Part shown: positions 8,685-22,852 of the stretch, piece after piece | How the letters are laid out: the number at the start of each line of letters is the position of its first letter | How positions within the stretch are numbered: the first letter of the stretch is position 1 | IMG/VR virus record: IMGVR_UViG_3300047557_000029 | Span: 1 to 24,592 of that record | DNA: 24,592 nucleotides | Reading direction: 5' to 3' (one strand) | DNA from: a virus | Made by a program: the position numbers and the translations under genes | Notes under the pieces: generated by a model | The model's database searches: none | Seen by the model: the letters and a program-made list of their open reading frames with translations, nothing else | Told to the model about the DNA's origin: nothing

Positions 8685-11600
8685 ATGGCCTTGGTGCTTG
8701 CAGATCGGGTACAAGAAACCACCACGACGGTAGGAAACGGGACTATTACCCTTGCGGGTGCAGTCAACGGTTTCCAGACGTTTGCCGCAGTTGGGGACGG
8801 AAATACCACTTACTACACCATTACAGGTGGCAGTGAGTGGGAAGTTGGTATTGGAACGTACACATCTTCAGGCACCACCTTATCCCGGGACACGGTTTTA
8901 TCGTCATCGGCAGGTGGGGCCAAGGTAAGTTTTTCCGCAGGCACTAAGTATGTATTTGTAACCTACCCACAAGAGCGGTCGGTCTACACAAATGGTACAG
9001 CCGTGGTGTTTGAAAACGGAGCTACGGTAGCCAACAATCAGCTGACCAATAGCTCTGTAACACTAGGATCAACCTCAGTAAGTCTTGGCGGCACGGCATC
9101 GACCCTGGCCGGTCTGACATCGGTAGCGGTTACCCAACCACCGTCATCGGCCCTTCAGTTAGCCACTAAGCAATATGTGGATGATGCTGTTTCAAGCGGA
9201 ATCACAATTCACACGCCGGTTCGGGTTGAGAGTCCAACCGCTCTTAATGCCACCTATACAGCAGGCGGCACAGCGGTAACAGTCACTGACATTACCGGAA
9301 GCAAGACGCTGACGTTTTCAACATCGCCCAGCCTAGCGGTAAACGACCAGATTGTCTTCTCATCAACGGCAAATGGAATCGTATCCGGGACTGCGTATTA
9401 CGTCTTTTCAGCCCCTGCCGCAAATCAAGTAACCCTGTCGCTGTCTTATAACGGCCCAGAAATTACCACCCTGACAAACGGAACCGGGCTATCAATTAGC
9501 GGAACCGTAAACGCTGGCGTAGGCGCAACCCTGACTAATGCTGGTACTAAAGCAGCTCTTCAGATTGACGGAATTAACCTTTCGACCACCAATCGAGTGC
9601 TGGTTTATAACCAAACAAACGCCTACGAAAATGGCATTTACACGGTTACAACCGTAGGAACTCCAGATCCTGGTGGCACTAACTGGGTATTGACCCGGGC
9701 AACAACAGAAAACACTTATAAACCAGATAGCACATCTGGTCTTGGTCAAGGCGATTATTTCTTTGTCCAAGAGGGTAATACTGGGGCAGGTGAGTCGTAT
9801 GTTCTCACTACAAATAACCCGTTAATTATTGGCACGACTAACCTGACGTTTACTCAGTTCGGTGCTTCCCAGGTTTACTCCGCAGGCACCGGACTTACGC
9901 TTAACGGAACTCAGTTCAGCCTGACATCGCCGGTAACAACGTCACTTGGCGGTACTGGACTGACTTCGTATACGGCTGGAGATCTGCCGTATTACGCTAC
10001 CGGGACGGCATTTACCAAGCTTGGTATTGGAGCTGCTTCGACTATTTTGACCTCTAGCGGCACAGCCCCTCAGTGGTCAACGGCCAGCGGGATCTCGGTC
10101 GGTACGGCTACAAATTTGGAAGGCGGCGCTCAGGGGTCTATTCCTTATCAAAGCGCTGCTGGTACAACGGTATTTTTAACTAAAGATACGACCGCCACTA
10201 GATACTTAGCCAATACCGGTACAAGCAATAATCCAGCCTGGGCGCAGATCGATCTTTCTAACGGCGTTACTGGAACCCTGCCGATTGCTAACGGTGGTAC
10301 TGGTGCGACAACGCTAGCCGGGGCGAATATTGCTGTAACTAATGTCAGCAATACATTCACATCTGCTCAAACATTCCGGGCCGCTAATGCAATCCGGTCA
10401 GAAGCCGCATCATCTCAAGACGCGATTGTTCTAGCTGGCCGGGCAGGCGGCACAGCAAGTTATGCAGTAACTTTGACACCAGCAACACTGTCATCAAGCA
10501 CAACCTTAACCCTGCCTAATGTCACTGATACTGTAGCAACGATTGGTACTGGTCAAACATTTACCGGTGCGAACACATTTAGAACAACATCGGGAACAAG
10601 ATTTGAAGAAGCGGCAACCCAAGATGCAGTCATTATTGATGGTAGGGCAGGTGGTACAAACTCCTACGCTGTAACAATACAGCCAACGACATTAGCGGCT
10701 AACAGAACATTAACTCTTCCAGATGCCTCCGGAACAATTCTCCAATCAGGAACGGCGGTTACAGTAGCCCAAGGTGGAACGGGCATTACCTCTGGTACGT
10801 CAGGCGGAATACCTTATTTCTCTAGCACCTCTGCTATTGCAAGTTCTGGGGCCTTGGCAGCAAATGCTTTGGTTATTGGAGGTGGCGCTGGTGTAGCTCC
10901 GTCAACAACTACAACTGGAGCTAACGTATTAACAGCCCTTGGAGTGGCAGTTGGATCATCCGGAGCGTTCACTACCAATAACGCAGCTAACACTTTTACA
11001 GCCGCACAGACATTTAGGGCTGCAAATGCCGTTAGATCTGAGGCAGCATCTACCCAAGACGCTATAGTATTGGCGGGTCGAGCTGGTGGTACTGGATCAT
11101 TTGCCGTCACTCTTACTCCAGCAACACTAGCTTCAAGCACAACGCTTACTCTGCCAAACGTCACCAGTACAGTTGCAGTGCTTGGTACGGCACAGACTTT
11201 TACGGCCGCTCAAACCTTTAGAGCTGCAAGTGCAATACGATCAGAAGCGGCGTCAACTCAGGATGCCGTTGTACTTGCTGGTCGAGCAGGCGGCACGGGA
11301 TCTTTTGCGGTCACCTTAACGCCTACAACTTTAGCAGCCAATAGAACTTTAACTCTTCCAGACAACTCTGGAACGGTGTTGACTACTGGTGCAGCGGTGA
11401 CGGTTGCACAAGGTGGTACCGGTCTTACATCGCTTACGGCTTATGGTCTTTTAGCCGCTGGAACTACCGGTACTGGTAATTTACAACAGGTATCTGGAAC
11501 CGGAACATCTGGTCAAGTATTGACATCTAATGGTGCAAGTGCGTTGCCAACCTGGCAAACAGCCAGCACTCCAGCAAAAGCTAGTGGAGCAATTATTGTT

Positions 11601-11729
11601 AACACAACAACGATTAGTGAAAATTACACGATACCAAGCGGATCTAATGGATTTACTGTGGGGCCGGTAACTGTGTCGTCTGGATTTGCTGTAACGGTTA
11701 CGAGTGGTCAACGATGGGTAGTGATCTAG
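8685..11729 (+). CDS. large repetitive tail fibre protein
   Basis: 1014 residues, the largest gene here. The N-terminal ~100 residues (EWEVGIGTYTSSGTTLSRDT, then GTKYVFVTYPQE) are a familiar fibre head domain; LATKQYVDDAVSSGI (~residue 160) starts a second domain. Residues ~557-900 hold four copies of a ~65-residue repeat (see the repeat entry) with GGTG turns between. The last ~40 residues (ENYTIPSGSNGFTVGP ending SGQRWVVI) recur at the end of the gene at 12613. It would be a trimeric, fibrous host-binding protein. No S74 peptidase/chaperone motif is visible at the C-terminus. Confidence 0.75.
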   Translation: MALVLADRVQETTTTVGNGTITLAGAVNGFQTFAAVGDGNTTYYTITGGSEWEVGIGTYTSSGTTLSRDTVLSSSAGGAKVSFSAGTKYVFVTYPQERSVYTNGTAVVFENGATVANNQLTNSSVTLGSTSVSLGGTASTLAGLTSVAVTQPPSSALQLATKQYVDDAVSSGITIHTPVRVESPTALNATYTAGGTAVTVTDITGSKTLTFSTSPSLAVNDQIVFSSTANGIVSGTAYYVFSAPAANQVTLSLSYNGPEITTLTNGTGLSISGTVNAGVGATLTNAGTKAALQIDGINLSTTNRVLVYNQTNAYENGIYTVTTVGTPDPGGTNWVLTRATTENTYKPDSTSGLGQGDYFFVQEGNTGAGESYVLTTNNPLIIGTTNLTFTQFGASQVYSAGTGLTLNGTQFSLTSPVTTSLGGTGLTSYTAGDLPYYATGTAFTKLGIGAASTILTSSGTAPQWSTASGISVGTATNLEGGAQGSIPYQSAAGTTVFLTKDTTATRYLANTGTSNNPAWAQIDLSNGVTGTLPIANGGTGATTLAGANIAVTNVSNTFTSAQTFRAANAIRSEAASSQDAIVLAGRAGGTASYAVTLTPATLSSSTTLTLPNVTDTVATIGTGQTFTGANTFRTTSGTRFEEAATQDAVIIDGRAGGTNSYAVTIQPTTLAANRTLTLPDASGTILQSGTAVTVAQGGTGITSGTSGGIPYFSSTSAIASSGALAANALVIGGGAGVAPSTTTTGANVLTALGVAVGSSGAFTTNNAANTFTAAQTFRAANAVRSEAASTQDAIVLAGRAGGTGSFAVTLTPATLASSTTLTLPNVTSTVAVLGTAQTFTAAQTFRAASAIRSEAASTQDAVVLAGRAGGTGSFAVTLTPTTLAANRTLTLPDNSGTVLTTGAAVTVAQGGTGLTSLTAYGLLAAGTTGTGNLQQVSGTGTSGQVLTSNGASALPTWQTASTPAKASGAIIVNTTTISENYTIPSGSNGFTVGPVTVSSGFAVTVTSGQRWVVI
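10353..11390 (+). repeat. four ~65-residue coding repeats in the large fibre gene
   Basis: Copies start at about 10353, 10557, 10992 and 11196. Each has TF-x(3)-TFR, then a SEAA(S/T)QDA core (copy 2: EEAATQDA), GRAGGT, an (A/V)VT strand and a LTLP(N/D) end. Copies 1-2 and 3-4 are adjacent pairs; about 240 bases of GGTG-containing spacer separate the pairs. Protein identity between copies is high, but codons often differ at third positions. Confidence 0.85.
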
Positions 11730-11737
11730 AGGATTAA

Positions 11738-12604
11738 ATGTTTGGCTTTTCCGCCTTTGCCGCTGCGCCCTTTGCGTCACAGGGTGGAATAAATGCCGAA
11801 GTACCGGTAACGGGTGTACAGGGCAGTGGTGCGGTTGGTGATGTAGCGTTTAGAGTTGATGATTCAGTCCTTCTAACTGGCGTTCAGGGCGATGGATTTG
11901 TAAATGATGTAACCACCAAAGTATTAAAGTTGGTGCAAGTCACTGGGGTACAGGGTGACGGAGCAGTTGGAACAGTAGCAATACGTGTTGACAATGTTGA
12001 CATTCCAACTGGTGTAGAAGGTACTGGTGCAGTAGGAACGGTAACTCCTCTTGTGGCCTATATGGTCACTGGAGTTGTAGGAACCGGAGCGGCAAATGAT
12101 GTAGTGCTAAGAATTGACAGTAACTATGAAGTTACTGGAGTATCAGGAACAGGTGCGGTTGGAAATGTAACAACCGAAGTTGATGATGCGGTTGTACCGA
12201 CCGGAGTAGAAGGAACCGGAGCAGTAGGGGATGTAGCGTTTCAGATTAATAGCAACTATGAGGTTGCTGGTGTATCTGGAGCAGGAGCAGTAGGAAATGT
12301 AACGCCTCAGTACGATGAAACGGTTGTAGTAACAGGAGTATCCGGAACAGGTGCGGTAGGAACAGTAAGTACAACAACTGGGGAAATAATTACCCCAACA
12401 GGAGTTTCAGGTACAGGCGCAGTTGGTATAGTAGCTGTAGAGATAGATGACAGTAAGCTAGTAACTGGAGTAGCTGGAACTGGAGCAGTAGGAACAGTAT
12501 TTATAGCGGGATGGACTTTGATTAACGATGCTCAAGTACCGAACTGGCAGACGATTAATGATGCACAAGTACCCAATTGGGAAGAGATTGACGTAGCGGC
12601 ATAG
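11738..12604 (+). CDS. 11-repeat beta-solenoid-like fibre protein
   Basis: 288 residues. After a short N-terminus (MFGFSAFAAAPFASQGG) there are eleven ~22-residue repeats with core TGVxGTGAVGxV, residues ~22-258, each followed by a variable acidic strand. The end has two copies of INDAQVPNW within the last 30 residues. The strict spacing suggests one beta coil per repeat or a stack of short beta arcs. Proteins with TGVEGTGAVG-type repeats occur in aquatic phages next to fibre genes, probably as virion fibres. The gap to the upstream gene is 8 bases and holds GAGG. Confidence 0.7.
   Translation: MFGFSAFAAAPFASQGGINAEVPVTGVQGSGAVGDVAFRVDDSVLLTGVQGDGFVNDVTTKVLKLVQVTGVQGDGAVGTVAIRVDNVDIPTGVEGTGAVGTVTPLVAYMVTGVVGTGAANDVVLRIDSNYEVTGVSGTGAVGNVTTEVDDAVVPTGVEGTGAVGDVAFQINSNYEVAGVSGAGAVGNVTPQYDETVVVTGVSGTGAVGTVSTTTGEIITPTGVSGTGAVGIVAVEIDDSKLVTGVAGTGAVGTVFIAGWTLINDAQVPNWQTINDAQVPNWEEIDVAA
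11801..12511 (+). repeat. eleven ~66-base repeats (TGVxGTGAVGxV)
   Basis: Eleven in-frame units encode the core of the solenoid-like protein. Core glycines are invariant in most copies; copy 2 (GDGFVNDV) and copy 5 (GTGAANDV) have the most changed cores. Inter-core strands pair up: RIDSN-YEV and QINSN-YEV recur in copies 5/6 and 7/8, suggesting duplication of a two-repeat block. Confidence 0.85.
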
Positions 12605-13530: not shown

Positions 13531-14103
13531 ATGAGTACGATTGCAGCAGGAACCACATCCGGCACCGCCCTAGTCAATACCGGTGATACGACCGGTACAC
13601 TGATATTACAGACTAACGGCACGACCACAGCGGTTACGTTAGGAACAGACCAGTCAGCCACTTTTGCTGGCAAGGCGATTATGACTGGATCGTCTAGCGT
13701 TGCTGGAGTAAAGATTTCCGATGTGCTGGAGACCGCCACAATCTCGGCCACGGCAGCTACGGGAACGATCAACTACGACGTCACGACCCAAGCGGTTTTG
13801 TACTACACCTCAAACGCCTCGGCTAACTGGACGGTGAACTTTCGTGGATCGAGCGGTACAAGCCTGAACACGCTGATGGCTACCGGTGAGTCTGTGACCG
13901 TGGCTTTCTTTGTTACCCAAGGTGCTACGGCTTACTACAACAACGTCGTCCAAGTAGACGGCAGCTCGGTAACGCCTAAGTACCAGGGTGGTACGGCATG
14001 GTCGGCAGGTAACGCAAGCAGTATTGATGCTTACACATATACGGTAATCAAAACTGGGAATGCCGCATTTACGGTGTTTGCCGCTCAGACGAGGTTTGCA
14101 TAA
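13531..14103 (+). CDS. putative fibre/virion structural protein
   Basis: 190 residues. The N-terminal 40 residues (ALVNTGDTTGTLILQTNGTT) match in plan the start of the glycine-rich protein at 16487. From ~residue 62 it has KISDVLETATISATAATGTI, then NYDVTTQAVLYYTSNASANW, FRGSSGTSLNTLMATGESVT and YYNNVVQVDGSSVTPKYQGG, a beta-sandwich-like domain seen in many aquatic phage structural proteins. AAGGAG at 13520-13525 is a strong ribosome-binding site. Its exact place in the virion is unknown. It overlaps the next start by one base (TAATG). Confidence 0.65.
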   Translation: MSTIAAGTTSGTALVNTGDTTGTLILQTNGTTTAVTLGTDQSATFAGKAIMTGSSSVAGVKISDVLETATISATAATGTINYDVTTQAVLYYTSNASANWTVNFRGSSGTSLNTLMATGESVTVAFFVTQGATAYYNNVVQVDGSSVTPKYQGGTAWSAGNASSIDAYTYTVIKTGNAAFTVFAAQTRFA

Positions 14104-16022
14104 TGCCGCTGATTGCGACCAGAGGCGCCGCATCTGTCCAAGGATTTGGGGAGTTCGCTCAATCTGCGGCAGTTAATTACATTGAGGATGTATTCCAAAC
14201 GTGGCTCTACACAGGCAACGATTCCGTCCAAACAATTACTAACGGCGTTGATTTGGCCGGTAAGGGCGGATTGATTTGGCTTAAAAAAAGGAATAACACT
14301 TCAATTCACGGACTTTGGGATACGGTTCGTGGTGGTACCAAACGGTTAAGCACCGAAAGCACCAATGCTGAATCGACACTAACTGATGCGTTTACCTTCA
14401 ACTCAAACGGATTCACCATTCCGGCTGGAGGATCAAGTTACCTAAACGAATCATCGTTAAACACTTACGTCTCATGGACATTCCGCGAGCAGCCAAAGTT
14501 CTTTGATGTGGTGACGTATACTGGAAATGGATCTGCTGGTCGAACAGTTAGTCATAATTTAGGATCTGTTCCAGGTGTAATTGTTGTTAAATCTTTAACC
14601 ACATCTGGCTACCAATGGACTGTTTATCACCGAAGTCTTGGCAATACAAAAGCAGTATTTTTGGATTCTACTGAAGCAGAAAGTACAAGTACGTCATATT
14701 GGAATAACACAACTCCAACATCTACTCAATTTTCTGTTGGTACAAGTGCCTATACAAATAGCAACGGAGAAAACTACGTCGCCTACCTATTCGCCCACGA
14801 CGCTGGCGGCTTTGGTCTGACTGGTTTGGACAATGTGATTACTTGTGGTTCTTTAACAATAACAAGTGGAGTTGCAACAGCAACATTGGGCTATGAGCCG
14901 CAATTTTTGTTAATAAAAAATACCAGCATAGGAACGTGGTGGATATTAGACAATATGCGTGGTATGCCAGTTGGATCAAATGACCCAGCACTAGGGGCAA
15001 ATTCATCGTCAGCCGAAGCAAGTTTGGGCGGTACTGATATATTATCTACTGGTTTTACTATGAATAGTGACACCTGGGGCGCAGGAACGTTTATCTACAT
15101 CGCCATTCGCCGTGGGCCGATGAAGACGCCTACGAGTGGGGCTGATGTTTACAATGCAGATACGTTTGGTGGCGGGCCTCCTGGGTTTCAATCTGGATTT
15201 GTAACTGATTTTGCTTTTTACAAAGATAAAGACACATCTCCTTATGACTGGTTTGTATCAAGCAGGCTTACAAGCGGACAGTTTTTAAAATTTAATACAA
15301 ATGGCGCTGAATCTGCTTCTGTTAGTTATGATTTTGATTACATGAATGGCTGGTTTGATAGTTCCTCATCAGACTCTACTATTCAATCTTGGATGTTCCG
15401 CCGCGCCCCTGGCTTCATGGATGTGGTTTGCTATACAGGAACTGGTTCAGCAACAACATTTAATCACAATTTAGGTGTTGCACCTGAATTAATGATTGTT
15501 AAAAGTAGATCAACAGCATCTACTGCTTGGATGGTATATGCGTCTGGGCCTGGGCCAACAAAACACTCAAGATTAAATACAACTAATTCTTTTTCCGTAA
15601 ACTCTGCAATTTGGAATGATACAGCTCCGACAAGCTCTGTTTTTACAGTAGGCACAGACAGTGATACAAATGGCGCTAGCCGAACATTTGTTGCTTATCT
15701 ATTTGCAACTTGCGCTGGAGTATCTAAAGTAGGAACCTACACAGGCACAGGCTCCACGCAAACTATTAACTGTGGATTTACTGCGGGAAGTCGGTTTGTG
15801 CTTATTAAACGCACTGATAGCACCGGTGACTGGTACGTCTGGGATTCAGCGCGGGGTATCGTGGCTGGTAATGATCCTTATTTATTGCTTAATAGCACAG
15901 CAGCTGAAGTAACAACTACTGATTGGGTAGACACAGCCAACTCAGGATTTGAATTAAGTAGCGCTGTTGGCAACAATGTCAACATCAATAATGCAACATA
16001 CATTTTCTTGGCAATAGCCTAG
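14103..16022 (+). CDS. multidomain adhesin-like fibre protein (DUF7483-like repeats)
   Basis: 639 residues built from recurring ~100-200-residue beta domains. A seam motif W-x-FR-x2-P-x-F-x-DVV-x-YTG occurs twice (WTFREQPKFFDVVTYTG near residue 130, WMFRRAPGFMDVVCYTG near 430), each followed by a HNLG-x2-P-x(3)-IVKS strand; ENYVAYLFA and RTFVAYLFA close domains. I associate this with the DUF7483 lectin-like phage domain, but that name is from memory. It is probably a receptor-binding fibre. Base composition alternates between G/C-rich seams and A/T-rich domain interiors, as in a gene assembled from exchangeable parts. Confidence 0.65.
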   Translation: MPLIATRGAASVQGFGEFAQSAAVNYIEDVFQTWLYTGNDSVQTITNGVDLAGKGGLIWLKKRNNTSIHGLWDTVRGGTKRLSTESTNAESTLTDAFTFNSNGFTIPAGGSSYLNESSLNTYVSWTFREQPKFFDVVTYTGNGSAGRTVSHNLGSVPGVIVVKSLTTSGYQWTVYHRSLGNTKAVFLDSTEAESTSTSYWNNTTPTSTQFSVGTSAYTNSNGENYVAYLFAHDAGGFGLTGLDNVITCGSLTITSGVATATLGYEPQFLLIKNTSIGTWWILDNMRGMPVGSNDPALGANSSSAEASLGGTDILSTGFTMNSDTWGAGTFIYIAIRRGPMKTPTSGADVYNADTFGGGPPGFQSGFVTDFAFYKDKDTSPYDWFVSSRLTSGQFLKFNTNGAESASVSYDFDYMNGWFDSSSSDSTIQSWMFRRAPGFMDVVCYTGTGSATTFNHNLGVAPELMIVKSRSTASTAWMVYASGPGPTKHSRLNTTNSFSVNSAIWNDTAPTSSVFTVGTDSDTNGASRTFVAYLFATCAGVSKVGTYTGTGSTQTINCGFTAGSRFVLIKRTDSTGDWYVWDSARGIVAGNDPYLLLNSTAAEVTTTDWVDTANSGFELSSAVGNNVNINNATYIFLAIA

Positions 16023-16030
16023 AGGTAATT

Positions 16031-16483
16031 ATGCAAATTAGACTTCGATCAAACGGCGCAGTGATGTACGAAGGGGAGCTGCGTCAATACCTAAGAGAAA
16101 ACAACGGCCCATCCTTTGACCGGCTGACACCAGAAGTCCTTGAGGCTCTCCAGGCTGACCCGGTATTTGAAGGCCCGCAGGCCCAGCCGGGGAGATACCA
16201 AGTTGCCTTCCGTGACGGAGTTGAGCAAGTTGAGGGCAAGTGGTACACCAAGTACTCAGTGGCCGACATGGATAACGATGCCAAAGCGGCCAAGGATACC
16301 GAGCAGGCTAAGAATGTGCGGGATGACAGAAACCGCCGTTTGGCTGACTCTGACTGGACTCAGGGTAAAGACATTGTGGATTCAGTAAGCACCCCTTGGG
16401 CGGCATACAGACAAGCGTTGCGGGATGTACCTGCACAGGCAGGCTTCCCGTGGGATATTCAGTGGCCTAACAAACCGGAGTAA
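16031..16483 (+). CDS. tail fibre assembly chaperone
   Basis: 150 residues. The C-terminal part RNRRLADSDWTQGKDIVDSV, then PWAAYRQALRDVPAQAGFPW and a final WPNKPE is the diagnostic end of the phage tail fibre assembly protein family (Phage_tail_APC-like). The N-terminus has a QYLRENNGPSFDR segment and a beta-rich ARPGRYQ-type middle (QPGRYQVAFRDGVEQ). Such proteins help fibres trimerise or attach, and are encoded beside the fibre they serve. It sits between the 639-residue fibre and the first glycine-rich adhesin, so either could be its client. Confidence 0.8.
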   Translation: MQIRLRSNGAVMYEGELRQYLRENNGPSFDRLTPEVLEALQADPVFEGPQAQPGRYQVAFRDGVEQVEGKWYTKYSVADMDNDAKAAKDTEQAKNVRDDRNRRLADSDWTQGKDIVDSVSTPWAAYRQALRDVPAQAGFPWDIQWPNKPE

Positions 16484-16486
16484 AAA

Positions 16487-17719
16487 ATGCCATCAACCAT
16501 AAACGCAACCTCAAGCGGATCTGGCGGTTTAATTAGCACCGGAGATGCATCCGGTCAGCTTGAGCTACAGACCAACGGTACGACTAGAGTAATAGTTGAC
16601 ACATCTGGGAACATGACAATTCAGGGTCAAGGAGACTTGCGCCTTGCCGATTCAGATTCATCAAACTGGGTGGCATTTCAAGCCCCGGCCACGGTTGCTT
16701 CAAATGTAACTTGGACACTACCTTCAGCCGATGGTACGAGCGGCCAAGTGCTTCAGACCAACGGATCTGGAACGCTGAGTTTTGCTACAGCCGCTTCAGC
16801 TAACTTCCAAGAATTTACATCTACAGGAACCTATACCAAACCTGCCGGTGCAACCTTTGTGCTTGTAGAGGCATGGGGCGCAGGTGGTGGCGGCGGTGGT
16901 GGCAATAGAGACACTAGTGGAGTAATGACTGGTGGCCGAGGTGGAGGTGGTGGTGCTTATGTGCAAAGATTGTTTAAAGCTGCGTGTGTAGGCGCCACAG
17001 AAACCGTAACTATTGGTGCTGGCGGAAATGCTGGCGCTGGTTCAGCGAGCTGCGCTGGTTCTAATGGCACCGCAGGTGGAAACACAACTTTTGGATCACT
17101 TCTTACTGCTTATGGTGGTGGTCTAGGATCAGGCGGAACGAGAAATCCGGGAGTGTGTTTTACAAATGGTGGTGGCGGTGGTGGAGCTTTAGGTGCTGGC
17201 TCAACTACTGCTGGCGGTGCGCCGGCAAGTAGTCCATGCAATTCAGGTGTAGCAGTTTTTGGTCAATTTGGTGGCGGTTTTGGAAACACTGGCGGTGGAA
17301 TCAATGGTGTAGGAATCCCGGGTGGTTGGGGCGGAGGCCAAGGAGGTGGATTTAGATCCGGTCAAGCCAGCGGCGCTGGTGGTTCTTCATTTCAGGGTGG
17401 TCCGGGTGGTGGCGCTGGTGGTTCAAATACAAATGGTACAGCCTATGCGGGTGGTGCTGGTGGATCATCGGCAGGTGCAAGTGGTGGGGGTGGTGCTGCT
17501 GGAACAACAACTGCCGGAGCAAGAGATGGAGCAGCCGGATCTGGCCGTCAAGGTGGCGGCGGCGGAGGCGGTGCATCTGGAGCCGGACAAAATGGCGGAA
17601 CCGGCGGAGCAGGCGGGACGCCCGGCGGAGGTGGTGGCGGAGGTGGAGCTACCAGCGGTTCAACTGGCGGTACGGGCGGTGCTGGCGGCGCTGGTTTGGT
17701 TCGTGTCTACACTTGGTAG
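16487..17719 (+). CDS. glycine-rich adhesin/fibre, module copy 1
   Basis: 410 residues. Residues 1-~110 carry a fibre module (GDLRLADSDSSNWVAFQAPA, then ADGTSGQVLQTNGSGTL). Then FQEFTSTGTYTKPAGATFVL-VEAWGAGGGGG starts a glycine-rich domain of ~290 residues, ending LVRVYTW. The TKPAG...VEAWGAGGGG entry and (V/L)RV(Y/F) exit are typical of phage Gly-rich receptor-binding domains, related to the polyglycine-II sandwich adhesins of S16-like phages. The glycine runs would pack into PG-II helices with variable loops at the tip. Long imperfect GGN repeats make it recombination-prone. Confidence 0.75.
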   Translation: MPSTINATSSGSGGLISTGDASGQLELQTNGTTRVIVDTSGNMTIQGQGDLRLADSDSSNWVAFQAPATVASNVTWTLPSADGTSGQVLQTNGSGTLSFATAASANFQEFTSTGTYTKPAGATFVLVEAWGAGGGGGGGNRDTSGVMTGGRGGGGGAYVQRLFKAACVGATETVTIGAGGNAGAGSASCAGSNGTAGGNTTFGSLLTAYGGGLGSGGTRNPGVCFTNGGGGGGALGAGSTTAGGAPASSPCNSGVAVFGQFGGGFGNTGGGINGVGIPGGWGGGQGGGFRSGQASGAGGSSFQGGPGGGAGGSNTNGTAYAGGAGGSSAGASGGGGAAGTTTAGARDGAAGSGRQGGGGGGGASGAGQNGGTGGAGGTPGGGGGGGGATSGSTGGTGGAGGAGLVRVYTW

Positions 17720-17728
17720 GGTGATTAA

Positions 17729-17974
17729 ATGTCTAATAGATACGCAATTATTGAAAACGGTTTAGTTGTCAATGTTATTTTGGCCAACGAAGATTTTGCC
17801 AAGCAACAAGGTTGGGTTGAGTGTCCAATAGGCGGCCCGGGGTGGACTTATGCAAATGGAGTGTTTACAGAACCTCCTACTGCTTCAACCCCAGAGCCTG
17901 CGCCCGCCCCAACTAAAGAAGAGTTGCTTGCTCAACTACAGGCTCTTCAGGCTCAAATACAATCATTATCATAA
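17729..17974 (+). CDS. ~80-residue fibre partner, module copy 1
   Basis: 81 residues. YAIIENGLVVNVILANEDFA, then GWVECPIGGPGWTYANGVFT, a Pro/Ala linker and a C-terminal leucine-rich coiled coil (ELLAQLQALQAQIQSLS). The N-terminal half resembles the beta part of short tail fibre assembly or chaperone proteins, and the coiled coil may trimerise. A near-identical paralogue follows the second glycine-rich gene (19999-20232), so this is likely a dedicated partner of that fibre type. Confidence 0.7.
   Translation: MSNRYAIIENGLVVNVILANEDFAKQQGWVECPIGGPGWTYANGVFTEPPTASTPEPAPAPTKEELLAQLQALQAQIQSLS
17834..17875 (+). repeat. 42-base exact repeat, copy 1
   Basis: This stretch, which encodes GPGWTYANGVFTEP in the partner protein, is identical to 20098-20139. 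The flanking DNA of the two genes is clearly diverged. Confidence 0.9.
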
Positions 17975-17993: not shown

Positions 17994-18689
17994 ATGGGCA
18001 AGAAAAAAGTATGTAAGGCCGCCGAACAGGTAAAAGAGGTTGTGCAAAACACACAACTGAATGTTGCCTTTCACTTTCCTTGCCCGATTTATCTGATTGA
18101 GCGTCCAGACTTCTTAGAAGCCGTCAATAAGGTTTCAGAAGAATCTTTGGAGAAACAGCGCAAAGAGAAGAAGATTGACGAGATCTATCCGGTCTTAATG
18201 AGCGAGAACTTCTACGCCGATGAGCGAGTTCAGCCTTTTGCCCAGTTTGTAGCCGCTACCGCTTGGAACATTCTGAATGAGCAGGGCTACGCCATGCAGG
18301 ACAAAGTGACCTCCTATATGGAGATGTGGACTCAGGAACACCACAAGCAGTCCTCGATGGAGCAGCATACCCACGGGTACGGATCTCAGATCGTAGGTTT
18401 TTACTTCCTTGAGGTTCCCGAGAATTCTTCCCGGGTTATCTTTTATGACCCACGGGCAGGCAAAGTTCAGATCGACTTACCGGAGACCGACTCTTCTCAG
18501 GCTACCGTGGCAAGCAAGATGATTAACTTTGAGCCAAAGCCGGGGCTGATGATCTTTACTAACGCTTGGCTAGCCCACGCATTTACCCGTCACGCCGCTG
18601 ATAAGCCGATTAAGTTTGTGCATTTCAATCTGTCGGTTCAGATGGCCCAGCCGGTTCAGGCACCAATGCCAGCAGCGGAGATCGTATGA
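17994..18689 (+). CDS. 2OG-Fe(II) oxygenase
   Basis: 231 residues. The double-stranded beta-helix pattern is clear: EQHTHGYGSQIVGFYFLEVP gives the first metal-binding segment (H125-x-H127), IFYDPRAGK follows, and PKPGLMIFTNAWLAHAFTRH supplies the distal His (H195) and a 2-oxoglutarate-binding Arg (R199). It would hydroxylate an unknown substrate using Fe(II), O2 and 2-oxoglutarate. Related enzymes are common in cyanophage and other aquatic phage genomes. Sitting between two fibre modules, it may modify fibre or virion proteins, but small-molecule or nucleic-acid substrates are not excluded. AAGGAG at 17982-17987 precedes the ATG. Confidence 0.8.
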   Translation: MGKKKVCKAAEQVKEVVQNTQLNVAFHFPCPIYLIERPDFLEAVNKVSEESLEKQRKEKKIDEIYPVLMSENFYADERVQPFAQFVAATAWNILNEQGYAMQDKVTSYMEMWTQEHHKQSSMEQHTHGYGSQIVGFYFLEVPENSSRVIFYDPRAGKVQIDLPETDSSQATVASKMINFEPKPGLMIFTNAWLAHAFTRHAADKPIKFVHFNLSVQMAQPVQAPMPAAEIV

Positions 18690-18946: not shown

Positions 18947-19990
18947 ATGGCAGCAACTATTAACGGCGACGGCTTAATAACCCTAGACGGTACGTCAACG
19001 ACCCAAGGCCGGGTACGGCTAGCCGAGGACACCGATAACGGGACTAACTATGTCGAGCTACAGGCTCCAGCTAGCGTTGCGTCTAATGTGACCTTCACCC
19101 TTCCGTCAGCCGATGGTACAAGCGGACAGGTATTGCAAACTAATGGTTCTGGCGTGTTGAGTTTTGCAAATGCAGGAGGAATAAATTTTCAATCATTTAC
19201 ATCCTCCGGAACTTGGACAAAGCCGGCTGGATATTCAGCTAGTTCACGAGTCCTGCTTGAAGCTTGGGGCGGTGGTGGTGGCGGCGGACGAGGAAACACT
19301 GGTGGTAACGTTCACGCTGGAGGCGGTGGCGGTGGTGGTGGTTATAACTATAGATGGGTAACTTTGTCATCTATGGGAGCTACTGAAACAATCACAATTG
19401 GTTCCGGTGGAAATGCTGGAGCATCATCTGACACTAATGGAACTGCCGGAGGAAATACAACAATTGGTAGTTTGCTTACTGCCTACGGTGGTGCAGGAGG
19501 ATCAAATGGAAGTGGCGGAGGTGCTGGTGGTGGCGGCGGCGGTCAATTATCTGCCGCAAGTAGTAATTCTCCAGGTGGCCCAGGCCCAATAGCACCAACT
19601 ACATCTTTAGACACGAGCGCAGAAGGTGCTGGCGGCCCGTCAACAACTATTAGTATTGGTGGTAGAAGCGGCCAAAGCGCACTTTATAAAGGTGGTGGCG
19701 CTGGATCTGGATCCGGATATGATTCGTCTACTTTATTAGGTGGTTTAGCCGGGGCAGCAGTTTGGGGCGGAGGCGGTGGCGGTGGAGCAGGGGCTAATGG
19801 CTCCACTACAGTTCGATCTGGTGGTGTTTCTTCGTATGGTGGTAATGGTGGAGACGGAAGCAGAGGAAGTCCGTCAACAGCAGCCACAGCAGGAACTCAA
19901 CCCGGTGGTGGTGGTGGTGGTGGCGACACTAACCAAGCTGCTGGAGCCGGAGCCGCTGGTCGAGTTCAAATTACAGTGTTCCCTGCCTAG
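18947..19990 (+). CDS. glycine-rich adhesin/fibre, module copy 2
   Basis: 347 residues, the same plan as 16487-17719. A GRVRLAEDTDNGTNYVELQA block, then ADGTSGQVLQTNGSGVL, the entry FQSFTSSGTWTKPAGYSASS followed by VLLEAWGGGGGGG, and a glycine-rich domain to the end (VQITVFPA). The first ~110 residues are close to copy 1, whereas the glycine-rich part differs in loop sequence and length. This is what a duplicated adhesin with a diversified tip would look like. It probably binds a different host surface structure from copy 1. Confidence 0.75.
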   Translation: MAATINGDGLITLDGTSTTQGRVRLAEDTDNGTNYVELQAPASVASNVTFTLPSADGTSGQVLQTNGSGVLSFANAGGINFQSFTSSGTWTKPAGYSASSRVLLEAWGGGGGGGRGNTGGNVHAGGGGGGGGYNYRWVTLSSMGATETITIGSGGNAGASSDTNGTAGGNTTIGSLLTAYGGAGGSNGSGGGAGGGGGGQLSAASSNSPGGPGPIAPTTSLDTSAEGAGGPSTTISIGGRSGQSALYKGGGAGSGSGYDSSTLLGGLAGAAVWGGGGGGGAGANGSTTVRSGGVSSYGGNGGDGSRGSPSTAATAGTQPGGGGGGGDTNQAAGAGAAGRVQITVFPA

Positions 19991-19998
19991 AGGTAAAC

Positions 19999-20232
19999 AT
20001 GAAATACGCAATTATTGAAAACGGAATTGTAATCAATGTGGCTGAAGCCGATGCTGAATTTGCTGCCGCTCAGGGGTGGATTGAGTGTCCAAACGCAGGC
20101 CCGGGGTGGACTTATGCAAATGGAGTGTTTACAGAACCTATTTCAGATTCAAAGCCCGTGCCTACTCAAACCAAAGAACAACTGCTTGCACAACTTCAAG
20201 AATTGCAAGCTCAAATCCAAGCACTGGAGTAA
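19999..20232 (+). CDS. ~80-residue fibre partner, module copy 2
   Basis: 77 residues. KYAIIENGIVINVAEADAEF, then GWIECPNAGPGWTYANGVFT, a linker and a C-terminal coiled coil (QLLAQLQELQAQIQALE). It is colinear with the partner at 17729-17974, and shares a 42-base exact stretch with it. It likely serves the glycine-rich protein just upstream, from which it is separated by 8 bases. Confidence 0.7.
   Translation: MKYAIIENGIVINVAEADAEFAAAQGWIECPNAGPGWTYANGVFTEPISDSKPVPTQTKEQLLAQLQELQAQIQALE
20098..20139 (+). repeat. 42-base exact repeat, copy 2
   Basis: Identical to 17834-17875. The two copies lie 2.26 kb apart in direct orientation, so recombination between them would delete the oxygenase, its neighbour and the second glycine-rich gene while leaving one intact partner gene. 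Confidence 0.9.
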
Positions 20233-21511: not shown

Positions 21512-22014
21512 AAACGTCCGAGGCAGGCATCCACGTAATGCACCAGTTTGAGGGGTATCGTGACCGGCCCTATTTATGTCCTGCATCAATATGGACTGTG
21601 GGCTGGGGTGAGGTGCTGCATCAGGAACAGATTCGCCTGCCAGTGATTCGCAAAGAAGGCTACACCGGAATGATCAGAAAGGAGTTTCCCCTTGCACCAG
21701 AGCATAACCGCCAATGGTCAAAGCCAGAGCTGGAGGAGCGCTTCAAGAATCTCCTCGTCAGTTTTGAGCGTGGTGTTCTTCGACTTGCCCCTAATCTATC
21801 TGGGCGTCAAGGCTTGTTTGACGCTTGTGTCGCTCTTAGCTACAACATCGGTGTAGGTGGGTTTCAGAGGTCTACCCTTCGCCAGCGAATAATCAGGGAT
21901 GAGCCGTTGGAAAGAATTGCTCAGGGGTTTATGATGTACGTAAATCCGGGCAGTGCTTTTGAAAAAGGATTGACGCGCCGCCGCAAAGCTGAAGTTGCCT
22001 TATTTATGAGCTGA
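21508..22014 (+). CDS. endolysin, GH24 (T4-type) lysozyme
   Basis: 168 residues, a typical size. The active-site block HQFEGYRDRPYLCPASIWTV-GWG gives E15, C24 and T30, spaced E-8-C-5-T. T4 lysozyme has E-8-D-5-T; the Asp/Cys alternative is known in this family. NIGVGGFQRSTLRQ and the C-terminal GLTRRRKAEVALF are also family hallmarks. It would cut the peptidoglycan glycan strand. No signal peptide or membrane segment is seen, so release through a holin is expected. Its 3' end overlaps the opposite-strand homing endonuclease by 11 bases. Confidence 0.85.
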   Translation: MKTSEAGIHVMHQFEGYRDRPYLCPASIWTVGWGEVLHQEQIRLPVIRKEGYTGMIRKEFPLAPEHNRQWSKPELEERFKNLLVSFERGVLRLAPNLSGRQGLFDACVALSYNIGVGGFQRSTLRQRIIRDEPLERIAQGFMMYVNPGSAFEKGLTRRRKAEVALFMS

Positions 22015-22852
22015 TCATGGATCGTCTCTTTTCCCAGTATGCTTTCTTTGCCGCTGATAACTTGGCTCGGTATTCTGGGGTATCCCACTGGGATCGTTTG
22101 GATTTAAATTCTTCAGAGTTCATTGTTTGTTTAAGGCGTTCTTTGCGCTGGGCCAAGGCAACTGGATCAGACATTTTTTCAACTCTTTTTTCTTGGGCCT
22201 TACGAATCCCATCTATTCTTTTAGCCTCAAAGTCTAGGTCTTTTCCATTGCGACTTGACCATCCTGACATGTTTGGATTGGACGCTAACCTGTCTCGTAA
22301 TTTTTGTTTATTTTCTTCAGACAAAGTTCGTTTAACCCCAGTCCTTGCAAGCTTCATTGCGGCTCTAAAGTCAGGATTTTCCCACTTAGCTTTGAGCTTA
22401 GCTCGCACTTCTGGGCGCTTTGATGGATTCGCATCCCCTGTAAATTTTGCTTTGACATCAGGATCTTGCATACGTTTTTTAAGTTTGGCACGGGATTCTG
22501 GACTGTGCGCAGGATGTGATGGGTCAGAAAGAAGTTGGCGCAACTTTTCACGATGCTCTGGGGACGGCGATGAGGTGCCTTCTCCGCCTTCACGAAGATT
22601 GGTTAAAGTGCCAGTTCCCGTCTGTATTCGACCAAGCTCTGCTATGAGATTGCGCTCTAGCGCTCTCCCGGCCACAATTGACTCAACTGGACGAATTTCA
22701 ACAATTACGTTATGACACCCAATTTCACTAAGTTTTTGTTTGGTAAGCCAATTTCTTCCGCCGCCATTATTGGGATTGGTGCGGTGACGGCTTTTAGAAA
22801 ATCCAACGTAAAACGGAATTGCGTCTGGTGTTTTCCAAATATAAACATACAT
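22004..22852 (-). CDS. GIY-YIG homing endonuclease with NUMOD3-like repeats
   Basis: 282 residues, the only confident gene on the - strand. The N-terminal nuclease has Y4-I-W (GIY position), F-Y15-V-G17 (YIG position), R22/R24, a catalytic-type ERNLIAELG Glu (E66) and N85 in NLREGGEG. It is followed by tandem short DNA-binding modules of NUMOD3 type: SPEHREKLRQLL, SPESRAKLKKRM, RPEVRAKLKAKW, LSEENKQKLRDRL, and a similar C-terminal TPEYRAKLSAAKK. AAGGAG (22859-22864, complement) sits 6 bases before its ATG. It is a free-standing selfish gene, inserted between endolysin and tail hub, that would cleave relatives lacking it. Confidence 0.85.
   Translation of the reverse strand: MYVYIWKTPDAIPFYVGFSKSRHRTNPNNGGGRNWLTKQKLSEIGCHNVIVEIRPVESIVAGRALERNLIAELGRIQTGTGTLTNLREGGEGTSSPSPEHREKLRQLLSDPSHPAHSPESRAKLKKRMQDPDVKAKFTGDANPSKRPEVRAKLKAKWENPDFRAAMKLARTGVKRTLSEENKQKLRDRLASNPNMSGWSSRNGKDLDFEAKRIDGIRKAQEKRVEKMSDPVALAQRKERLKQTMNSEEFKSKRSQWDTPEYRAKLSAAKKAYWEKRRSMISS

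Follow-up and report, generated by a model that had tools for sequence, protein, structure and literature searches.

Codon-conserved domain borders and probable domain exchange in a six-domain DUF7483 tail-fiber-type gene of phages

An earlier note on a 24,592-nucleotide (nt) stretch of viral DNA (IMG/VR record IMGVR_UViG_3300047557_000029, positions 1 to 24,592; hereafter the window), made from the sequence alone, drew attention to an adhesin gene at positions 14103-16022 whose base composition alternates along its length, and proposed that domain interiors are swapped in from other phages through recombination at conserved seams. Here we describe this gene and its relatives. The encoded protein matches family PF24299 (DUF7483) in two stretches (E 1.4e-91; 307.5 bits versus a gathering cut-off of 27), as well as the PHROG families phrog_19943 (virion structural) and phrog_24898 (tail fiber, E 2e-77). 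The two DUF7483 copies are two triads of domains of ~100 amino acids (aa), and hidden Markov models (HMMs) of the six segments, which we refer to as A1, M1, M2, M3, M4 and C, match one another (the M1 model finds M4 with E 3e-33, the M2 model finds C with 4e-21 and the M3 model finds A1 with 2e-16). The six-domain order was present in 290 open reading frames (ORFs) among 470 sequences from which exact duplicates had been removed; the same sequences include three-domain ORFs (16 with A1-M1-M2 and 13 with A1-M4-M2), some of which may be truncated at the edge of a contig. A tail (fiber) assembly gene lies downstream of the DUF7483 gene, as is also the case for the homologues in phages ctnlZ23 and S-CRES3. 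Judging by the family names and this gene position, the product is likely a tail-fiber or adhesin protein, which would presumably bind a receptor. No paper on DUF7483 was found in the open-access literature.

The borders between the domains, or seams (S1-S5, Table 1), have a simple position in the predicted fold. AlphaFold2 (AF2) models the 639-residue protein with a mean predicted local distance difference test (pLDDT) score of 87.2, and in the whole model each seam comprises the closing strand of a domain together with the opening strand of the domain that follows (residues 121-128/134-140, 224-231/246-253, 328-336/350-355, 427-432/439-445 and 528-534/541-547). Comparison with solved structures gave weak best matches, a P. 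aeruginosa pseudaminidase for the whole model (Z 5.9, root-mean-square deviation (rmsd) 2.8, 71 residues aligned) and a tailspike for domain M1 alone (Z 4.3, rmsd 3.5, 81 aligned), the next matches of M1 being a galectin and the R2 pyocin fiber, tied at Z 4.0. Foldseek returned E values of at least 0.13 for M1 as a single domain. These matches are mixed, mostly to beta-sandwich folds, and we claim no fold family.

Table 1. Features of the DUF7483 gene and its downstream neighbor (positions in the window; L numbers denote loci)
Feature	Position	Strand	Remarks
Tail-fiber/adhesin-type gene, likely	14103..16022	+	639 aa; two DUF7483 copies, six homologous ~100-aa domains
Domain A1	14181..14486	+	HMM from homologue alignment; A1 model also matches C, M1 and M4
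Seam S1, A1/M1 border	14445..14534	+	last A1 strand and first M1 strand; codon-conserved
Domain M1, swappable cassette	14496..14795	+	AF2 model of M1 alone, mean pLDDT 96.0
Seam S2, M1/M2 border	14751..14858	+	codon conservation; breakpoints
Domain M2, swappable cassette	14832..15110	+	among large modules, L012/L031 have only M2 in common (97-98%)
Seam S3, M2/M3 border	15057..15164	+	codon conservation; breakpoints
Domain M3, swappable cassette, most variable	15141..15401	+	interior aa identity 0.21-0.37
Seam S4, M3/M4 border	15381..15452	+	codon conservation; breakpoints
Domain M4, swappable cassette, M1 paralogue	15408..15707	+	cassettes L097/L165, L068/L144, L009/L061
Seam S5, M4/C border	15678..15752	+	breakpoint cluster; weaker codon conservation (1.40-1.41); AT-rich in window
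Domain C, internal control	15723..16019	+	protein conserved (aa identity 0.60-0.84); synonymous sites near chance
Tail fiber assembly chaperone-like gene	16031..16483	+	PF16778, E 1.2e-19; directly downstream of DUF7483 gene

The DNA of seams S1-S4 is conserved beyond the protein that it encodes. Conservation was expressed as a codon ratio, in which the observed frequency of identical codons at sites encoding the same amino acid in homologue pairs is divided by the expectation from the codon usage of both genes. The first gene set comprised 167 genes with a mean pairwise identity of 0.574 (230 matched genes gave 225 of full length, 171 that were unique over the last 1500 nt and 167 after clustering at 95%), and an earlier run used 81 genes. 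With both the 81 and the 167 genes the ratio is 1.6-2.3 at the centers of S1-S4 and 1.0-1.4 in most of the remaining gene. Where amino acid identity is at least 0.85, it is 1.71 in S1-S4 (53 codons), 1.40 in S5 (13 codons), 1.19 in domain C (31 codons) and 1.18 elsewhere (61 codons), and at amino acid identities of 0.50-0.70 it is 1.68 in S1-S4 versus 1.22-1.41 in controls. Because equally well-conserved codons in domain C and elsewhere lie near chance, protein constraint fails to explain the seam DNA. Four equal windows placed at random reached the observed value of 1.61 in 3 of 20000 trials. When the four seam zones were slid jointly, 6 of 638 shifts reached the observed ratio, all of them shifts of 1-6 codons; shifts by about one domain (103-114 codons) still gave 1.56-1.57, but in these 66-89 of 126 zone codons coincide with other seams, and distant shifts with an overlap below 15 codons gave at most 1.30. 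Stretches at 14103-14162 (aa 1-20) and 14253-14282 (aa 51-60) are codon-conserved although they are not among the seams, and the former may represent a further seam at the border of the gene.

The same pattern recurs in other material. A second gene set contained 118 genes (115 after 95% clustering), of which 102 came from loci found by module scans (three scans gave the best 80 loci each of a larger number, and the M3 scan gave one locus), 10 were further genes in first-set loci, four came from phage records and two from metagenome-assembled genomes. The effect is smaller there, with ratios of 1.29-1.57 in S1-S4, 1.19 in S5 and 1.11-1.21 in all else. Pool codons were also compared with eight phage records. 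The protein of ctnlZ23 is 46.6% identical and its gene matches the pool codons at S1-S3 (0.64-0.68 versus 0.32-0.36 expected), but not at domain C. In four CRP roseophages the match is 0.56-0.69 at S3 and lower, 0.46-0.53, at S1; that of EBPR siphovirus 2 is moderate (S1 0.53 versus 0.38 expected; S2 0.51 versus 0.36), and HTVC031P and S-CRES3 show little match, on few codons. Finally, among 13735 homologue pairs without shared cassettes, exact runs of at least 20 nt have a per-base coverage of 0.077-0.110 in S1-S4, 0.031 in S5, 0.027 at the gene start, 0.021 in domain C and 0.0024 in the interiors; with such long exact matches at the seams, homologous recombination could join genes there. We found no report of codon-conserved seams in the DUF7483 family in the open-access literature, subscription papers being mostly outside the scope of the search.

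Genes of this family are mosaic, and the borders of recently shared segments gather at the seams. Among the 81 genes, 52 of 3240 pairs (a count that includes near-duplicates) have a large module with a DNA identity of 85% or more in common, and in 39 of the 52 the identity falls to 65% or less in another large module; L042 and L047, for example, have identities of 1.00 in M1, 0.64 in A1 and 0.47 in M2. Shared segments were mapped with a two-state model whose column-specific background allows for the general conservation of the seams. It was applied to 1884 well-occupied alignment columns with stricter limits, replacing an all-column scan that gave 2605 segments, many of which, among those listed, were very short and in gap-rich columns. 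Among the 13861 pairs of the 167 genes, the scan detected 144 recent segments, spread over 126 pairs; these segments collapse to 59 events with 90 internal ends between positions 14300 and 15950 (S1, 13; S2, 8; S3, 13; S4, 10; S5, 10; elsewhere, 36). Seams S1-S4 hold 44 of the 90 breakpoints (49%) versus 22.6 expected (25%; p 1e-6), and S1-S5 hold 54 (60%) versus 26.5 expected (29%; p 2e-9), where the expected shares come from uniform breakpoints simulated through the same detector (median error 1 nt) and the binomial p-values take breakpoints as independent. The zone edges follow the codon profile, but they were set after the segment list had been seen, and S5 was added because of that list. 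At higher score limits the share of S1-S4 is 40 of 69, 28 of 47 and, at the strictest, 21 of 32 (8.0 expected), and with each gene used once it is 35 of 66 (16.6 expected).

With the zone edges unchanged and the null share taken from the first-set simulation, the second gene set placed 16 of 23 breakpoints in S1-S5 (6.8 expected, p 8e-5) and 13 of 23 in S1-S4 (5.8 expected, p 0.0013), distributed as six in S2, four in S3, three in S4 and three in S5. Exchange also took place between phages without closely related flanks: when flanks of at least 1 kb were compared, 97 of 119 sharing pairs lacked a closely related flank (at least 85% identity over half of its length), some of them having flanks at 80-84%, and the remainder are closer relatives. 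The gene in the window occurs in none of the 144 strong segments, so exchange is documented for its relatives rather than for the copy in the window. Breakpoints in relatives are thus not scattered evenly across the gene, as the proposal of swapping at conserved seams had anticipated, and seam-mediated exchange of adhesin cassettes is well supported for the family, as an enrichment of breakpoints that has exceptions.

The base composition from which that proposal arose was found largely as described. The four seams that had been called G/C-rich have a G+C content (GC) of 0.48-0.62 and a GC at third codon positions (GC3) of 0.62-0.79, and the three interiors that had been called A/T-rich have GC 0.38-0.40 and GC3 0.15-0.28 (overall GC3, 0.69 versus 0.21). 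For these segments, which the earlier note had picked by eye, the GC3 difference between seams and interiors is 0.483, versus 0.050 +/- 0.062 in synonymous-codon shuffles (0 of 20000 reach it). In an unselected test, none of 5000 shuffles reached the variance of GC3 in sliding windows of 10, 15 or 20 codons, and 1 of 5000 did so at 30 codons, so the GC3 profile is not flat; raw composition is less clear, the variance of total GC giving p = 0.085 against shuffled codon order. The alternation therefore holds mainly at synonymous positions, and its fit to the seams is incomplete: positions 14475-14520 do not form a peak of their own but close a longer stretch (14103-14520) whose GC3 is above that of the remaining gene, the second AYLFA seam in S5 (15678-15722) has a GC3 of ~0.13, and 15800-15870 is GC-rich (GC3 ~0.6) though no seam. 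To judge from the alignments, the nucleotide conservation of the seams is a stronger signature than their composition, and one that is invisible from a single sequence.

Taken as a whole, these observations are probably best explained by the exchange of single domains or runs of domains through crossover in the seams of the six-domain gene. Phages of a large, mostly uncultured group would trade single domains or domain runs, with crossovers falling inside the DNA for the two strands that meet at each domain border, where the seams of 70-110 nt are the commonest sites of long exact matches between otherwise diverged genes. Homologous recombination, during co-infection or with prophages, would join genes at the seams in a manner that keeps reading frame and fold. 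Repeated exchange would keep the seam DNA alike within exchange groups, and the interiors would stay very diverse, plausibly through selection for different host receptors.

Several results weigh against this explanation, at least in its simplest form. At amino acid identities of 0.70-0.85 the codon ratio of S1-S4 equals that of other sites (1.28 on 13 codons versus 1.28 on 34; domain C, 1.12), and codon conservation extends beyond S1-S4, to aa 1-10 (1.73), 11-20 (1.53), 51-60 (1.58) and 541-550 (1.55). Breakpoints outside S1-S5 make up 36 of the 90, and include an additional cluster at ~15857-15890 in domain C, where codons are not conserved and most segments reach the gene end; restricting the analysis to segments with identity of at least 0.93 slightly lowers the share of S1-S4 (30 of 66), and in the second set S1 has none of the 23 breakpoints. 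Phage ctnlZ23, with its pool-type S1-S3, is at chance in S4. Lastly, the slope of seam GC3 on contig GC is 1.69, nearly that of domain C (1.84), and seam sites show little linkage with one another (r2 0.03-0.11 at distances of 4-10 nt); both the tracking of GC and the low linkage are explained no less well by prolonged independent evolution with constraint on particular sites than by simple homogenization.

The last two features also count in favor of purifying selection on the seam nucleotides themselves, for example in an RNA or DNA element, a recombinase site or translation signals, with breakpoints gathering at the seams because conserved DNA permits recombination. This rival draws further support from 28 seam codons that are near-fixed in GC-poor phages, as the same codon occurs in 0.74 of GC-rich phages (0.42 expected), AT-ending codons included (GC-poor/GC-rich: AAT at 14832, 0.95/0.97; ATT at 14838, 0.98/0.97; TTT at 14502, 0.95/0.90), and from sharp differences in conservation between neighboring seam sites. 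It is at odds with the seven of 68 seam codons at which each GC class has a different, nearly fixed synonym (1 of 134 in the rest of the gene and 1 of 52 in domain C), since the bases at these codons are then not fixed by one function, and with the lack of pool codons in S4 of ctnlZ23. Simple codon optimality is rejected as the cause of the seam codons, as the favored codon for the same amino acid varies from site to site. We regard nucleotide selection as possible but on balance unlikely to be the main explanation. Because of the low linkage and the tracking of GC, site-specific constraint may nevertheless act on the seams beside homogenization. The class-specific synonyms, together with the similar GC of phages that share segments (mean contig GC difference of 0.032 versus 0.056 for all pairs; 0 of 5000 resamples as small), favor partly separate recombining pools, which the alignments suggest are mixed within, though not fully between, GC classes.

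It is improbable, in our estimate, that the seams are nothing special, with border protein motifs forcing similar DNA and ordinary modular evolution producing crossovers anywhere that are then filtered by the fold. The seams do encode conserved residues, selection against broken folds would also deplete interior breakpoints and could still contribute to their pattern, and the missing codon excess at amino acid identities of 0.70-0.85 agrees with this view; however, the excess persists against conservation-matched controls at identities both of at least 0.85 and of 0.50-0.70, and in the former class domain C and other sites lie far below the seams. More improbable still is that the interiors were imported from AT-rich phages, so that low GC marks the imported pieces, which is how the earlier note had read them. 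Interior GC3 is indeed below that of most other genes in the window, as is that of the whole gene (0.344), but other tail-type genes there are also low in GC3 (8685-11729, 0.39; 11738-12604, 0.28; 16487-17719, 0.32; 18947-19990, 0.31), and the phages that share segments differ little in contig GC. Moreover, GC3 is higher in the seams than in the interiors in all 167 of the homologues, and on average in each contig GC class, and the interiors follow the GC of their own contig (r 0.66) much as the seams (r 0.67) and domain C (r 0.71) do. Low GC is hence no mark of recent import from AT-rich phages, and, given the contrast in all 167 genes, such import is rejected as the main cause of the AT-rich interiors.

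Exchange through crossover in the seams has precedents. Distal tail-fiber adhesin segments of T-even phages were reportedly shown by Tetart et al. in 1998 to be swapped between conserved motifs, with a change in specificity. In that system, short conserved motifs reportedly flank variable adhesin segments and act as crossover points; the likeness drawn here is one of process, and the repeated unit in the present gene differs in being a whole domain of ~100 aa, present six times in line with five internal seams.

Conserved DNA motifs that surround the receptor-binding domain in tailspike genes have been proposed as recombination hotspots for six genera of lytic phages (PMC10408124). There, DNA that is more conserved than its surroundings likewise flanks a swappable binding region across genera; the present case differs in having four to five seams within one gene, mapped breakpoints and codon-level controls. 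The recent exchange of domains that Smug et al. (2023, PMC10684548) describe for the tail fibers and tailspikes of distant phages resembles the shuffling seen between DUF7483 relatives, but the mosaicism is compared there at the profile level, and the terms 'breakpoint', 'linker' and 'GC content' are absent from the main text. In lambdoid phages, Rad52-like recombinases carry out relaxed homologous recombination (De Paepe et al. 2014, PMC3945230). That study chose 50-bp windows as near the 30-bp minimum for Red beta, took in side tail-fiber genes among the test regions, and describes exchange over short, partly diverged DNA and raised identity at mosaic borders. By analogy, seam recombination in the DUF7483 family may resemble this recombination on diverged DNA, with the difference that the recombinases are of a named type there, whereas here the process is inferred from sequences and the window is part of a genome.

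Swapping of adhesins at conserved motifs is thus a known process, and what appears new, on the open-access literature searched, is its extent, namely six in-line cassettes with five internal seams, four of which combine strong codon-level conservation with class-specific alleles. The family provides a natural, data-rich case in which the swap points of an attachment-type phage protein can be read from DNA, the in-line domain borders being flagged by codon conservation in excess of what the protein requires. How binding modules are exchanged without breaking the protein thereby becomes testable from sequence data alone, and seam alleles may reveal gene-exchange partners among uncultured phages. 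A more speculative extension, which we consider doubtful, is that the seams form a shared exchange standard, a community 'dialect' of seam DNA, exemplified by CAA/CAG at 14490, ACA/ACG at 14826 and AGA/CGT at 15111, that is kept because genes with drifted seams cannot acquire new domains. If so, selection would act on seam DNA to preserve its capacity for recombination, and phages that exchange adhesin domains could be recognized by their dialect.

After removal of duplicates (418 loci before removal), 13 loci carry the gene in two multi-domain copies, which in 9 of the 13 lie within 10 nt of each other. These loci are L100, L119, L131, L135, L200 and eight more, with copies often 4-10 nt apart; short stretches with more than 80% identity between the two copies fall mostly in the seams, and longer stretches at ~65-82% occur as well. 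In L100, the copies are 81% alike over 324 nt within domain C, i.e. not in a seam. In a check for spare cassettes or a shufflon, in which most loci are fragments, seam models outside the indexed gene matched only reference-phage homologues, second-copy loci (partly an incomplete copy) and L145, where the match lies just upstream of a late-starting ORF.

Elsewhere in the window, the start of an ORF on the minus strand (22004-22852) by eye resembles what we take to be the motif of GIY-YIG endonucleases, and the ORF has no Pfam match at E 0.01. The tail gene region includes a gene resembling 2-oxoglutarate- and Fe(II)-dependent (2OG-Fe(II)) oxygenases (17994-18689; PF13759, E 1.4e-9). Positions 11738-12604 contain ten copies of a 44-nt repeat unit, most of them spaced 66 nt (22 aa) apart, which by eye encode TGVxGTGAVGxV. 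Finally, positions 17740-17899 and 20004-20163 hold duplicated pieces (93 nt at 83% and 60 nt at 73%, both 2264 nt apart), each behind a Gly-rich tail gene (16487-17719 and 18947-19990), and together with these genes they look like a duplicated gene set.
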